46,969 nucleotides of DNA from an uncultured Lachnospiraceae bacterium (GTDB lineage: Bacteria; Bacillota_A; Clostridia; Lachnospirales; Lachnospiraceae): NCBI GenBank assembly GCA_905207905.1, contig CAJLNC010000009.1, forward strand, positions 1 through 46,969, written 5' to 3'. Under the pieces are notes generated by a model. The model saw only the letters and a list, made by a program, of their open reading frames with translations. It did no database searches and had not been told where the DNA came from. This document shows, one piece after another, positions 20,248 through 33,616 of the stretch. A program made the position numbers and the translations under genes. Positions within the stretch are counted from its first letter, which is position 1. Each line of letters begins with the position of its first letter.

Positions 20248-21195
20248 ATGAGCAGTAAGATTACCATTATTGGGGCAGGAAGTGTTGGATCTACGATTGC
20301 CTATACCTTATCCCACGATGCCATTGCGTCAGAGATCGTTATGATTGATGTCAACAAGGAGAAGGTGCAGGGTGAGGTTATGGATATTGAGCAGGGTACC
20401 TGTTTCCGCAATCCCATTTCCATCATTGCAGGCGAGTATGAGGATGCCAGAGATTCAGATATTGTGATCATTACTTCCGGAATTGCCAGAAAACCGGGCC
20501 AGACCAGAATTGAGCTGACCAAGACAAATGTCGAGATTTTAAAGCAGATCACACCGGAGATTGTAAAAGTGGCTCCCAAGGCGCTTTACATTATTGTAAG
20601 CAATCCGGTGGATGTTCTCACCTATGTATTTACCAAGATTTCCGGACTTCCGGAGAATCAGGTGATTGGTTCCGGCACTATACTGGACACTGCCCGTCTC
20701 CGTTATCATCTGTCTGAACATTTTAAAGTGGCCCAGAAGAACATTCACGCCTATGTGTATGGAGAGCATGGAGATTCTTCCTTTGTACCCTGGAGCGGAG
20801 CCTACATCTCCGGCGTCAGCGTGGATGAATATTACAAACTGATGCAGAGCCTGGGAAAAGATGTAAAGCCTCTGGATAAGGAAGCCACTGCAGAGTATGT
20901 ACACAAATCCGGCGGCGTGGTGATTGCCAACAAGGGAGCTACCTTCTATGCGGTGTCTACCTCTGTCTGTCACCTGTGCGGAATTTTGCTTTCCGCATCG
21001 GATTCCATTGCTACGGTATCTTCTATGATGCATGGAGAGTATGGGATCGAGGATGTGTGCCTGAGCACACTGACTCTGGTAGGACCCAACGGTATCCAGG
21101 GCAAGGTACCCATGCGCATGAACCAGAAAGAGATCGAACAGTTACGAGCCAGCGCAGATGCGCTGAAGGCTGTGATTGCTCAGATTGACCTGTAA
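20248..21195 (+). CDS. LDH/MDH-family NAD-dependent 2-hydroxyacid dehydrogenase, malate-type specificity residue
   Basis: This 315-residue enzyme of the lactate/malate dehydrogenase superfamily has the Rossmann motif GAGSVGS (9-15), SNPVDVLTY, an active-site His in YGEHGDSS and the substrate-anchoring Arg in DTARLRYHL. By overall look it would be annotated L-lactate dehydrogenase. The specificity loop reads IARKPGQTR, however, with Arg81 where lactate enzymes have Gln102 (standard numbering); Arg there favours malate/oxaloacetate. The GATFYA segment is LDH-like, so the picture is mixed. The start at 20248 has AAAGGAG at 20237-20243. The earlier in-frame ATG at 20233 is less likely. The fumarate-handling genes downstream favour a malate role. 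Confidence 0.85.
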   Translation: MSSKITIIGAGSVGSTIAYTLSHDAIASEIVMIDVNKEKVQGEVMDIEQGTCFRNPISIIAGEYEDARDSDIVIITSGIARKPGQTRIELTKTNVEILKQITPEIVKVAPKALYIIVSNPVDVLTYVFTKISGLPENQVIGSGTILDTARLRYHLSEHFKVAQKNIHAYVYGEHGDSSFVPWSGAYISGVSVDEYYKLMQSLGKDVKPLDKEATAEYVHKSGGVVIANKGATFYAVSTSVCHLCGILLSASDSIATVSSMMHGEYGIEDVCLSTLTLVGPNGIQGKVPMRMNQKEIEQLRASADALKAVIAQIDL

Positions 21196-21530
21196 AGGGT
21201 TGATAAAAAATAAAAGTTTCGAGACGGCTGCCGGAAGGCTTTCTATTTGGCTGGTGCGGCAGATATGCCGGATAAATTCGGAACAGTTCTGTAAATGAAT
21301 AAGATTCCATATCGGAACGGATATTTAGAGAAGGGGTCTGCAGACTTCCTGCCTGAAGGTTTCTTTGGATGATTTCTTCCAGCGGAGATGAAGAGTTTTG
21401 GAGGAGAACGCCAAAGGAGCTGTCCGGGCAGCCTGTTTGCAGTCCCCTCAGTTATAGGTATCCGGGGCAGGCTCAGGGCATATACAGGGCAGGCTCTCAG
21501 ACAAAATATGCAGGAAGGATACATTAGTCT
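21196..21530 (+). other. Intergenic stretch before the hdr-flx operon
   Basis: These 335 bases hold no convincing gene. GGGCAGGCTC occurs twice (21465-21474 and 21487-21496, period 22). No clear terminator follows the dehydrogenase gene and no strong -35/-10 pair was found before hdrB, so the operon may be partly read through from the dehydrogenase promoter. AGGAAGG at 21512-21518 is the hdrB ribosome site, with a longish spacer. Confidence 0.4.
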
Positions 21531-22508
21531 ATGAAGTATAGTTATTATCCAGGGTGTACCCTGAGAACGAAGGCCCAGAAGCTGGACGCCTACGCAAGAG
21601 CCAGTGCAGCGGCGCTGGGCTTTGAACTGGAGGAGATACTGGAATGGCAGTGCTGCGGAGGGGTATATCCGCTGGGCAGCGATGAGATTGCCACGAAACT
21701 TTCTTCCGTCCGGGCATTGAATCATGCGAAAGAGGAAGGACAGGATCTGGTAACGCTTTGCTCCGCCTGTCATCATGTGATCAAGCGGGTCAATGATGAT
21801 ATGAAGCATGTGGAGGATATCCGCACCAGGGCAAACAATTATATGAAGCTTTCAGAGCCTTATGAAGGGGAGACTACGGTACTTCATTTTCTGGAGGTAC
21901 TGCGGGACCGGGTAGGCTTTGATGTTTTAAAAGAGAAAGTGACAAAGCCTCTTACCGGAAAAAAGATTGGCGCCTACTATGGTTGTCTGCTCCTTCGGCC
22001 CAGCAAGATCCTGGCCTTTGATGATCCGGAAAATCCAAGGATCCTGGAGGATTTTATTCGGGCGATTGGGGCGGAGCCGGTGGTTTACCCTTACCGCAAC
22101 GAGTGCTGCGGCGGCTACATCTCTCTGAAAGAAAAGCAGATGGCAAAAAATATGTGTGAGACCATCGCGGAGAGCGCGAAAGGATTTGGAGCAGAGCTTC
22201 TCATTACCGCCTGTCCCCTGTGTATGTATAATCTGAACAAGAGTGCTGGGGAAAAGCTTCCGGTGCTTTACTTTACAGAGCTTTTGGCAGAGGCTCTTGG
22301 GGTAAAGGAGCAGGTGGATGCAGAGCTTGCCAAAAAGGAAGCAGTTTATCAGAAACAGACCGGAGATGGCTGTAAGTGCCGGGGAAAGCTGGAGAAGCCG
22401 GGAGATGATGGGAGAGAAGAAGGACGGATGGAAAAACAGGACGGCGGCAACAGCGAAAATAAAAAAGAACCAGAGAAAATATGTGAGGAAGGAGGCAGGA
22501 TGTTATGA
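21531..22508 (+). CDS. hdrB: Heterodisulfide reductase subunit B-like (CCG-domain) protein
   Basis: This 325-residue protein has two complete CCG domains: Cys9, Cys41-42, Cys77/80 and Cys152, Cys192-193, Cys228/231. These bind the noncubane [4Fe-4S] clusters that reduce disulfides in methanogen HdrB. In bacteria the same domain appears in Hdr-Flx complexes, in the SdhE/MfrE subunits of unusual succinate/fumarate enzymes, and in TfrB. Residues after about 265 form a charged, low-complexity tail rich in Lys, Glu and Gly not expected in the family. It is the first gene of the Hdr-Flx operon and overlaps hdrC by 4 bases. Confidence 0.9.
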   Translation: MKYSYYPGCTLRTKAQKLDAYARASAAALGFELEEILEWQCCGGVYPLGSDEIATKLSSVRALNHAKEEGQDLVTLCSACHHVIKRVNDDMKHVEDIRTRANNYMKLSEPYEGETTVLHFLEVLRDRVGFDVLKEKVTKPLTGKKIGAYYGCLLLRPSKILAFDDPENPRILEDFIRAIGAEPVVYPYRNECCGGYISLKEKQMAKNMCETIAESAKGFGAELLITACPLCMYNLNKSAGEKLPVLYFTELLAEALGVKEQVDAELAKKEAVYQKQTGDGCKCRGKLEKPGDDGREEGRMEKQDGGNSENKKEPEKICEEGGRML

Positions 22509-32214: not shown

Positions 32215-33057
32215 ATGCGAGAGATTCAGGCGCAGCAGATTACAGATGTGGTAGAAAAATTGTGTATTGAGGCGAACCAGTATCTTCCGGAGGATGTGCA
32301 GTGCGCGATTAAAAACTGCCGTTCCCGGGAGGACTGGGAGATTGCTCAGGGGGTTCTGGATAAGATCATTGACAATTTTGAAATTGCCAAGAAGGAAAGT
32401 GTGCCCATTTGCCAGGATACTGGTATGGCCTGCGTTTTTTTGGAGATCGGTCAGGATGTGCACATTGTAGGGGGAAATCTGGCGGAGGCTGTGGATGAAG
32501 GCGTCCGCAGAGGATATGACCGTGGATATCTCAGAAAATCCGTGGTAAAAGATCCCATCCGCAGAGGAAATACAGGGGACAATACTCCAGCCATGCTCTA
32601 TACAGAGATCGTTCCGGGAGAGCAGATCAAGGTGACTGTGGGCCCCAAAGGATTCGGCAGTGAGAATATGAGCGCTATCCGTATGTTTAAGCCATCCGCA
32701 GGCCTTCAGGGAATCAAGGATTTTATTCTGGAGACGGTAGAGGCAGCCGGCCCCAATCCCTGCCCGCCGATGGTAGTGGGCGTTGGTATCGGAGGCACCT
32801 TTGACAAGGCGGCTCTGCTGGCAAAGAAGGCGCTGATGCGTCCGATTGATTCCTCCAATCCGGATCCCTATTATGCAGACCTGGAAAAAGAGATGCTGGA
32901 AAAGATCAATGAACTGGGCATCGGGCCTCAGGGCTTTGGAGGAAAAACGACCGCCATTGGACTGAATATTGAGACTCTGCCCACCCACATAGCAGGAATG
33001 CCCTGCGCGATTAATATCAACTGTCATGTGACACGCCATAAATCGGAGGTGATCTAA
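32215..33057 (+). CDS. Class I fumarate hydratase (or tartrate dehydratase) alpha subunit
   Basis: This 280-residue subunit corresponds to the N-terminal catalytic part of FumA/TtdA-type [4Fe-4S] hydro-lyases. It has PICQDTGMACVF with a cluster Cys, GNTGDNTPAMLYTE, VGVGIGGTFDKAALLAKKAL and the later NINCHVTRHK. The reaction is reversible hydration of fumarate to malate; tartrate to oxaloacetate is the close alternative. GGAGGTG lies ahead of the ATG. The beta subunit starts one base after the stop codon, so the two are coupled. Confidence 0.93.
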   Translation: MREIQAQQITDVVEKLCIEANQYLPEDVQCAIKNCRSREDWEIAQGVLDKIIDNFEIAKKESVPICQDTGMACVFLEIGQDVHIVGGNLAEAVDEGVRRGYDRGYLRKSVVKDPIRRGNTGDNTPAMLYTEIVPGEQIKVTVGPKGFGSENMSAIRMFKPSAGLQGIKDFILETVEAAGPNPCPPMVVGVGIGGTFDKAALLAKKALMRPIDSSNPDPYYADLEKEMLEKINELGIGPQGFGGKTTAIGLNIETLPTHIAGMPCAININCHVTRHKSEVI

Positions 33058-33058
33058 G

Positions 33059-33616
33059 ATGGAAAAACATATTACCCTTCCTTTGACCGAGGAACTGGCA
33101 AAAACTCTTCACGCCGGAGATACCGTATATCTTACCGGAACCATCTATACATCCAGGGATGCAGGACACAAAAGAATGTGTGAAGCACTGGCCAGAGGAG
33201 AAAAACTGCCCTTTGATCCTAAGGATGCTACGATCTACTATGTGGGTCCAACGCCTGCAAAACCGGGGCAGGTGATCGGCTCCGCAGGCCCTACCACCAG
33301 CGGCCGGATGGATGCCTATGCGCCTACCATGATGTCTGTTGGCGCAAGGGGTATGATCGGAAAGGGAGCCCGTCTTCCGGAGGTGGTGGAGGCCATGAAG
33401 AAATATCACGGGGTCTACTTCGGAGCTATTGGCGGTGCCGGAGCTTTGCTGGCAAAGTGCATTAAGAAGGCAGAGCTGATTGCCTTTGAAGATCTGGGTG
33501 CAGAGGCATTAAGAGAGCTGTATGTGGAGGAGATGCCTCTGGTGGTGATCATTGACAGCGAGGGAAACAATCTTTATGAAGACGGACGCAGAGCTTACTT
33601 GGATTCTAAAAAATAA
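33059..33616 (+). CDS. Class I fumarate hydratase (or tartrate dehydratase) beta subunit
   Basis: This 185-residue subunit equals the C-terminal domain of FumA-type enzymes. It has GDTVYLTGTIYTSRDAGHKR at the N-terminus, GPTTSGRMDAYAPTMM (substrate loop) and VGARGMIGKG. It assembles with the alpha subunit to make an active dimer of heterodimers. It is the last gene of the C4-dicarboxylate cluster. A hairpin without U-tract follows at 33663-33710. Confidence 0.93.
   Translation: MEKHITLPLTEELAKTLHAGDTVYLTGTIYTSRDAGHKRMCEALARGEKLPFDPKDATIYYVGPTPAKPGQVIGSAGPTTSGRMDAYAPTMMSVGARGMIGKGARLPEVVEAMKKYHGVYFGAIGGAGALLAKCIKKAELIAFEDLGAEALRELYVEEMPLVVIIDSEGNNLYEDGRRAYLDSKK

Follow-up and report, generated by a model that had tools for sequence, protein, structure and literature searches.

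A gene block joining Hdr-Flx to a soluble fumarate reductase in gut Lachnospiraceae: a candidate electron-bifurcating route to succinate

Gene content of the locus

The window, a 46,969-nucleotide stretch of DNA from an uncultured Lachnospiraceae bacterium (contig CAJLNC010000009.1), carries an Hdr-Flx module directly ahead of the two subunits of a putative soluble fumarate reductase, FrdB and FrdA. We find this linkage conserved among close relatives, and propose that NADH oxidation by Hdr-Flx probably feeds the reductase by electron bifurcation. Open reading frames (ORFs), Pfam and NCBIfam place thirteen intact genes, all on the + strand, in one block of about 13 kb, here with the one structured intergenic element.

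20233-21195, +, probable malate dehydrogenase (MDH), LDH/MDH family (Pfam Ldh_1_N/C)
21531-22508, +, HdrB-like, two CCG (non-cubane [4Fe-4S]) motifs (Pfam CCG domain, two stretches)
22505-22894, +, HdrC-like dicluster ferredoxin subunit (Fer4 dicluster; TIGR03290 HdrC 63.5 bits, cut-off 160)
22891-24888, +, HdrA flavin (bifurcation) subunit, GTG start (HdrA2 NF040770)
24879-25349, +, FlxD/MvhD-like (FlpD PF02662, 181.4 bits)
25337-26311, +, FlxC-like Fe-S subunit (4Fe-4S dicluster domain; named by gene order)
26315-27412, +, FlxB-like Fe-S subunit, AsrA/sulfhydrogenase beta-like (Fer4_22 106.5 bits; ShyB/HydB/AsrA below cut-offs)
27409-28308, +, FlxA-like NAD(P)H:FAD subunit (NAD_binding_1, FAD_binding_6, DHODB_Fe-S_bind)
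28309-28447, +, structured intergenic element in the flxA-frdB gap (folding z-score, covariation)
28504-29178, +, atypical FrdB, [2Fe-2S] plus two [4Fe-4S] electron-transfer subunit (cluster Cys motifs)
29191-30801, +, FrdA flavoprotein, putatively of the non-covalent FAD type, 88-aa N-terminal extension (FAD_binding_2 231.8 bits)
30994-32187, +, AspT/YidE/YbjL-family carrier, putative succinate exporter (Asp-Al_Ex 258.8 bits; TIGR01625 198.2 bits, cut-off 71.95)
32215-33057, +, class I fumarase alpha (NF004885 426.2 bits, cut-off 276)
33059-33616, +, class I fumarase beta (NF005310 289.2 bits, cut-off 238)

The order given by an earlier sequence-only reading (malate-type dehydrogenase, HdrBCA, FlxDCBA, FrdBA, AspT-family carrier, class I fumarase) is correct, with all thirteen genes intact and on the + strand. 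Its start for the dehydrogenase, 20248, is the second in-frame ATG (codon 6); the ORF opens at 20233. From hdrB through flxA the genes overlap or nearly touch (successive gaps −4, −4, −10, −13, 3 and −4 nt). Wider gaps lie between MDH and hdrB (335 nt), flxA and frdB (195 nt), frdB and frdA (12 nt) and frdA and the carrier (192 nt). A terminator scan listed no + strand terminator-like site in the MDH-hdrB, flxA-frdB or frdA-carrier gaps. A sigma-70-like site (20132-20160, 12/12 matches) is located upstream of MDH, but the scan returned nine promoter-like sites in all against a shuffle mean of 13.4. No Sdh/Frd membrane-anchor gene adjoins frdBA among the window genes by Pfam and ORF check, which agrees with the earlier description of the pair as lacking an anchor.

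The Hdr-Flx module

HdrA, HdrB, HdrC and FlxA-D are encoded together, the gene set of FlxABCD-HdrABC, and HdrB has both of its CCG cluster motifs. The ten cluster cysteines and both CCG motifs of HdrB are kept in all 76 extracted relatives. Residue counts here and below refer to 119 FrdA, 114 FrdB, 76 HdrB and 35 MDH sequences taken from 120 loci after length and score filters, with an extra 40%-identity filter for HdrB and MDH; Blautia luti (L061, L151) and C. asparagiforme (L072, L152) are each counted twice. The top NCBIfam matches of HdrB are SdhE of 8-methylmenaquinol:fumarate reductase (MFR; 141.8 bits, cut-off 500) and HdrB itself (138 bits), both below cut-off. HdrA matches positions 1-640 of the 777 in the HdrA2 model NF040770 (800 bits, cut-off 1100) and FlxD matches positions 641-773, thus the two jointly span 1-773. 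In other systems HdrA carries the bifurcating FAD. We note that many of the listed HdrA matches in the phylum sample described below contain one in-frame TGA, probably encoding selenocysteine, which is known in HdrA.

FrdB and FrdA as a probable soluble fumarate reductase core

Against the SdhB/FrdB model TIGR00384 the window's FrdB scores 27.2 bits (cut-off 88), compared with 107.7 for the canonical B. luti SdhB used as control. The protein named FrdB in the sequence-only reading is an atypical Fe-S subunit. Its twelve cluster cysteines (C39, C44, C47, C65; C110, C113, C116, C120; C148, C151, C154, C158) are invariant in 114 of 114 relatives, and by motif correspond to one [2Fe-2S] and two [4Fe-4S] (CxxCxxCxxxC) clusters. 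A second [4Fe-4S] in place of [3Fe-4S] is an E-type feature, found by motif in all 114. FrdB itself has no HdrB-type (CCG) motif.

FrdA has TfrA as its best NCBIfam match (332.9 bits, cut-off 718) and aligns with SdhA/FrdA of a solved structure from about residue 88. In Pfam the first 88 residues have no match, nor is the flavoprotein C-terminal domain matched in FrdA; similar N-termini occur in divergent relatives too. His-318, Glu-335 and Arg-359 are present in 119 of 119 relatives, His-431 and Arg-466 in 118 (one gap each). By alignment we take these five to be the known substrate-binding and proton-donor residues of FrdA. The dicarboxylate-binding and proton-donor residues expected of a fumarate reductase are found in FrdA on this basis. 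At the position of the FAD-linking histidine there is Asn-127 in all 119 sequences; the FAD of FrdA should therefore be non-covalent.

TfrB is matched weakly, in consecutive segments, by FrdB, HdrC and HdrB (34, 28 and 42 bits; model positions 19-87, 118-219 and 395-487). TfrB is a single fused protein oxidising CoM-SH/CoB-SH. The curated cut-offs lie far above these values: the TfrB pieces reach 28-42 of 385 bits with no fused TfrB present, TfrA scores as given above, and for MFR the score of FrdA is 210.3 of 1100, with HdrB likewise short. Judged by these profiles, such scores denote kinship of parts and not membership of either family. The best reading of FrdBA is a putative E-type/Tfr-like soluble fumarate reductase core.

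Two other identities were considered and rejected. A canonical membrane quinol:fumarate reductase is disfavoured by the FrdB score below the SdhB cut-off, the lack of an adjoining anchor and the missing FAD histidine. The listed NadB models, which would make FrdA an L-aspartate oxidase, score 142-257 bits, each below cut-off, against 333 for TfrA, and FrdA has an Fe-S partner and fumarase neighbours. The protein collection holds at least 7999 FrdA matches and 5539 FrdB matches; among the matches listed, the named relatives are mostly Lachnospiraceae, Oscillospiraceae and other Clostridia. In our tree the closest FrdA belongs to Blautia glucerasea, at 88% identity. Two over-long FrdB relatives (P0127, P0225) appear to owe their length to early-called starts, and one over-long FrdA (P0110) appears by eye to contain a repeated segment.

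Conservation among close relatives

The close-relative set comprised the best 80 of at least 560 confirmed loci, one genome per species, with FrdA 72-90% identical. The order HdrB-HdrC-HdrA-FlxD-FlxC-FlxB-FlxA-FrdB-FrdA on one strand was observed in 55 of the 55 loci with at least 7.6 kb upstream; in each of the other 25 the block is contiguous as far as the contig end. The flanking genes are less constant. Of 50 testable loci, 30 have an MDH of at least 60% identity ahead of hdrB, and where at least 4 kb of downstream sequence is available (63 loci), fumarase is found in 50, the carrier in 35 and both in 29. Across 33 loci, distance correlations are 0.88 for FrdB-HdrA, 0.86 for FrdB-HdrB and 0.75 for FrdB-MDH, 0.73 for FrdA-HdrA and 0.69 for FrdA-MDH, values confounded by shared descent.

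Linkage across the phylum

Genomes from the wider phylum (398) were searched, with tblastn neighbourhood hits kept at 60 bits or more. FrdB was found in 39. Hdr genes lie within 10 kb of FrdBA in 22 of these, in four arrangements.

Complete Hdr-Flx before FrdBA, 2 genomes (HdrBCA in G001, HdrCBA in G260)
FrdBA before HdrBCA-FlxDCBA, 4 genomes
HdrCB-FrdBA, 5 genomes
HdrCBA-HdrAA-FlxD-FlxC-FrdBA, 9 genomes (variant order in G284) plus 2 cut by the contig end

The complete Hdr-Flx set thus accompanies FrdBA in 6 of 39. A rough estimate by random placement, which assumes three Hdr loci per 2.6 Mb genome, predicts about 0.9 linked genomes against the 22 observed; the linkage is far above chance. 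The sequence-only reading had said that frdBA apart from hdr-flx in nearly all relatives would count against it. That is not the pattern, with 55 of 55 close relatives linked and 22 of 39 phylum genomes having some Hdr module alongside. Every linked type has HdrC and HdrB, as do 20 of the 22 linked genomes, the other two being the contig-cut loci; this points to HdrC/HdrB as the electron donor of FrdB. HdrA is present in 35 of 39 FrdB-bearing genomes and in 108 of 359 others (Fisher p 2.9e-13, kinship uncorrected; at most three candidates scored per genome, E ≤ 1e-60).

Of the 50 rows in the FrdA tree (midpoint root), one is the window, 10 were picked among the first 80 loci and 39 come from the 40 loci L113-L152. 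Complete Hdr-Flx linkage occurs in three places, the gut clade, L136 and a clade with the reversed block order. L136 is on a long branch whose exact place is unsure, and the three places do not prove three origins. We note that L134, L141 and nine similar loci have HdrCBA, a double HdrA (1070 aa in L134, 1098 aa in L141), FlxD and FlxC beside FrdBA, with FlxA and FlxB missing; in L134 and L141 genes resembling, by eye, 2-oxoglutarate:ferredoxin oxidoreductase and succinyl-CoA synthetase follow.

FrdBA is thus observed with Hdr-Flx on either side, with HdrCB alone and with HdrCBA plus a double HdrA. An evenly balanced proposal is that FrdBA serves HdrB/HdrC as a portable acceptor module of high potential, with several Hdr platforms across the phylum using this unfused Tfr/E-type core, and that in gut Lachnospiraceae and Oscillospiraceae succinate formation is energy-conserving and ferredoxin-yielding.

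Proposed electron path

The catalytic and cluster residues appear compatible with a fumarate reductase fed by HdrB. We consider it probable that HdrB transfers electrons directly to FrdB, with Flx-HdrA bifurcating the electrons of NADH to feed the soluble reductase. FlxA would accept hydride from NADH and FlxB, FlxC and FlxD would relay electrons to the FAD of HdrA. From there one electron would pass to ferredoxin (Fd), and its partner would reach FrdB by way of HdrC and the non-cubane HdrB clusters. The [2Fe-2S] and two [4Fe-4S] clusters of FrdB would then deliver electrons to the non-covalent FAD of FrdA, where fumarate is reduced. The net reaction would be 2 NADH + Fd(ox) + fumarate → 2 NAD+ + Fd(red) + succinate. 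MDH and fumarase would supply fumarate, the carrier would export succinate and Rnf would re-oxidise ferredoxin, building an ion gradient. A physical complex, the direct step from HdrB to FrdB, bifurcation, the direction of flow and ferredoxin reduction are all things we infer.

With potentials of +33 mV for fumarate/succinate and −320 mV for NADH (PMC5861303), bifurcation is computed to be downhill by 49 to 33 kJ/mol for ferredoxin at −420 to −500 mV. The coupling suggested by the sequence-only reading gains from the conserved linkage and the fitting residues, but FrdBA proves to be modular and the idea had already been published.

Several observations weigh against this path. Seventeen of 39 FrdBA loci have no Hdr gene within about 10 kb, and 13 of the 17 have HdrA elsewhere in the genome; among the 17, five loci (L113, L114, L127, L140, L147) are left with less than 5 kb on one side, and the contig of L121 measures 3.8 kb. 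In four of 39 genomes (G070, G074, G299, G383) FrdBA occurs with no HdrA match. It therefore appears that FrdBA can use another donor. The loci of three HdrA-less genomes (L120, L125, L128) form one clade on the FrdA tree. In L120 and L125 FrdBA directly follows a 1144-aa protein, pyruvate carboxylase-like by eye, and as these genomes have no HdrA match another electron donor should exist there. Within the window, the structured 195-nt gap separates flxA from frdB. The TfrB argument is soft, because the scores are weak and FlxC matches the same ferredoxin stretch of TfrB (23.6 bits). Neither of the two over-long FrdB relatives examined showed a fusion with HdrB or HdrC. AF2 models built from shallow alignments are poor (mean pLDDT 43.9 for FrdB, 56.0 for FrdA). 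In tubeworm symbionts the expression of tfrAB differed from that of its Hdr-Flx cluster (PMC11636981).

Alternative explanations

Coupling might instead be indirect, with HdrB reducing a low-molecular or protein disulfide and FrdBA fed from the thiol pool or another carrier, so that no single complex is formed. HdrB retains both non-cubane motifs, which methanogen HdrB uses for disulfide chemistry. A split Tfr-like set, HdrCB-FrdBA, exists in 5 of the 39 genomes, and PMC11636981 puts forward a DsrC-like route as another option for the tubeworm symbionts. However, the block encodes a single HdrB, which leaves FrdBA with no thiol-oxidising site of its own, and FrdB lacks the HdrB-type motif. We regard indirect coupling as unlikely.

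Both NADH electrons could also flow to fumarate through Hdr-Flx, as in a plain soluble NADH:fumarate reductase. The near-complete coverage of the HdrA2 model by HdrA plus FlxD argues for a bifurcating module, with the caveat that HdrA is below the cut-off; the bifurcating FAD is in HdrA elsewhere, and such a waste of energy would be unusual for an energy-limited fermenter. Electron transfer from NADH to fumarate alone is nevertheless computed at −68 kJ/mol, and the growth of B. luti has been balanced with an NADH-dependent fumarate reductase in one scheme (PMC12773636). We regard non-bifurcating transfer as unlikely too, slightly more so than a thiol-mediated link.

It is conceivable that the acceptor of Hdr-Flx is another one and that its place in one operon with FrdBA has regulatory reasons. 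The 108 of 359 FrdB-lacking genomes that have HdrA and the four FrdB genomes that do not would fit such independence. Regulation hardly accounts for a linkage that persists when the gene order changes and when HdrCB is the sole Hdr part, and we consider mere co-expression very improbable.

Reverse operation (confurcation), in which succinate oxidation and reduced ferredoxin would give NADH, is least credible of all: the chemistry is reversible in principle, and L134 and L141 adjoin the 2-oxoglutarate:ferredoxin oxidoreductase-like and succinyl-CoA synthetase-like genes, but asparagine replaces the FAD-linking histidine in 119 of 119 sequences, covalent FAD is reported to be required for succinate oxidation in yeast SQR (PMC2680327), and the MDH, fumarase and exporter neighbours together with succinate production by B. 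luti fit reduction.

Relation to known systems

FlxABCD-HdrABC of Desulfovibrio vulgaris (Ramos et al. 2015) is reportedly linked both to ethanol metabolism and to a partner of the thiol/disulfide type. It has the same seven-subunit set and is not known to have FrdBA attached. In Desulfovibrio alaskensis G20, Hdr-Flox, Rnf and the reduction of internally formed fumarate are reportedly linked in physiology (Meyer et al. 2014); the fumarate reductase there is reportedly a membrane type, unlike the soluble type of the window. The resemblance to methanogen TfrAB consists in the TfrA match of FrdA and the weak TfrB matches of FrdB, HdrC and HdrB. In the window, in contrast, separate genes encode the parts, Flx-HdrA stands beside them, and all score below the Tfr cut-offs.

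The E-type SdhABE enzymes hold their FAD non-covalently and combine a second [4Fe-4S] with SdhE, an Hdr-related subunit that has ten Cys (PMC2680327). These features, also those of MFR, resemble the window's predicted non-covalent FAD, second [4Fe-4S] and 10-Cys HdrB; SdhE is, however, a membrane-anchor subunit, whereas HdrB of the window accompanies HdrC-HdrA-Flx. In tubeworm symbionts Hdr-Flx is interspersed with a Tfr-type fumarate reductase in a reductive tricarboxylic acid cycle cluster, flxABCD-hdrABC-korABCD-tfrAB, and direct electron flow from Hdr-Flx to TfrAB has been proposed (PMC6315080 and PMC11636981). That system differs in serving carbon fixation, in belonging to Gammaproteobacteria and in having the 2-oxoglutarate oxidoreductase inside the cluster.

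The closest counterpart is the "succinate operon" of Pseudoclostridium thermosuccinogenes, which comprises fumarase, an NADH dehydrogenase/heterodisulfide reductase (Flx-Hdr), fumarate reductase and a putative succinate transporter. In PMC7282089 the fumarate reductase is treated as linked to ferredoxin reduction, with citation of a 2019 preprint that makes the claim in its title. The operon was about 4-fold up under CO2 limitation, with significance lacking for some subunits. Compared by this published description, both loci cluster Hdr-Flx, fumarate reductase, fumarase and a putative transporter; they differ in that the P. thermosuccinogenes operon has one fumarase tag, listed first, and no MDH named within it. 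The coupling idea is therefore already in print and the window operon belongs to the same kind. Biochemical proof of Hdr-Flx coupled to FrdBA was not found in the literature searched, with most subscription papers outside reach. To this we add that the block is conserved in gut Lachnospiraceae and Oscillospiraceae, that its residues support an E-type/Tfr-like reading and that its Hdr contexts are modular, none of which was found in that same literature.

Physiology in Blautia and relatives

A January 2026 study of B. luti (PMC12773636) reports 0.42 succinate per glucose, strong transcription of frdAB and a fumarate reductase activity assayed with reduced methyl viologen; one of its schemes uses an NADH-dependent fumarate reductase. 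The terms hdr, heterodisulfide and quinone are absent from its main text. The genome of B. luti MSK.16.34 has the full Hdr-Flx-FrdBA block (L061/L151); the study used DSM14534. B. luti also has a second operon, SdhC-SdhA-SdhB-like (L153, 3572-6891), whose anchor-like protein scores 21.7 bits against an Sdh_cyt cut-off of 25.8. With two fumarate-reductase-like operons the measured activity is not uniquely assigned. In B. glucerasea (G003:C149) only adjacent anchor-like and flavoprotein matches were seen, and C. asparagiforme has a single FrdA match. The earlier label "quinone-independent" reflects anatomy, the missing anchor of FrdBA and the two [4Fe-4S] motifs of FrdB, and must be set beside this separate, apparently anchored operon. 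A profile search for menD gave no match reaching cut-off in three of three genomes, B. luti among them, the futalosine route being outside this search. RnfC is above cut-off in all three relatives tested.

Using the stoichiometries of PMC12773636, we compute that the extra ferredoxin would yield, via Rnf, 0.56 ATP per succinate or about 0.23 per glucose. If the proposed path is right, gut anaerobes would conserve energy at the fumarate step with no quinone for that step. ATP yields would shift, low-potential electrons would become available for Rnf, hydrogenases or CO2 fixation, and published Blautia energy balances would need revision. Succinate is an important gut metabolite. With B. luti in cultivation, the question is directly testable.

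Flanking enzymes

The first gene is likely a malate-type dehydrogenase. We take it as a rule that Arg at the specificity position marks the malate type and Gln the lactate type. Arg (Arg-86) is present in 35 of 35 extracted relatives; in the three solved L-lactate dehydrogenases (LDHs) compared, two have Gln and the third, the best match 1y6j, has Arg. The protein nonetheless passes the NCBIfam L-LDH model (342.7 bits, cut-off 339), while the MDH models fall below their cut-offs, and 1y6j was deposited as an L-LDH despite its Arg. The "malate-type" label of the sequence-only reading therefore keeps the support of Arg-86 but not that of the family models. An L-LDH identity is disfavoured by Arg-86, even with the NCBIfam L-LDH models accepting the protein. 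We note that acceptance of an Arg-bearing dehydrogenase by these models is a likely source of wrong annotation names. The carrier more likely starts at ATG 31024, where a ribosome-site-like sequence lies ahead, as judged by eye; its substrate would be succinate, for export.

Intergenic element and other features

The 195-nt flxA-frdB gap has a folding z of −5.1. The element within it (28309-28447, +) has 44 pairs, 23 of them with compensatory change in seven sequences. Copies occur in L032, L034, L046, L050, L061, L062 and L065, and in L002 at 8280-8421. With a covariance model, 81 sources yielded 15 matches; 12 fall in the flxA-frdB gap, and seven of those 12 had served to build the model. 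The model also matched 1-17 times in each of 10 genomes. Against Rfam 15 there was no match at gathering score, and the sub-threshold ones were at chance level. A short DNA query had given a single match in B. luti, as if the element were frd-specific; the 1-17 matches per genome in 10 genomes rule this out. The element is a dispersed structured repeat and is left out of the proposed mechanism.

Elsewhere in the window, a 591-aa ORF (43431-45206) has no Pfam (E ≤ 1e-8) or NCBIfam (E ≤ 1e-10) match. A T-box leader (11520-11786, 99 bits) is located upstream of a prolyl-tRNA synthetase gene (11942-13381).

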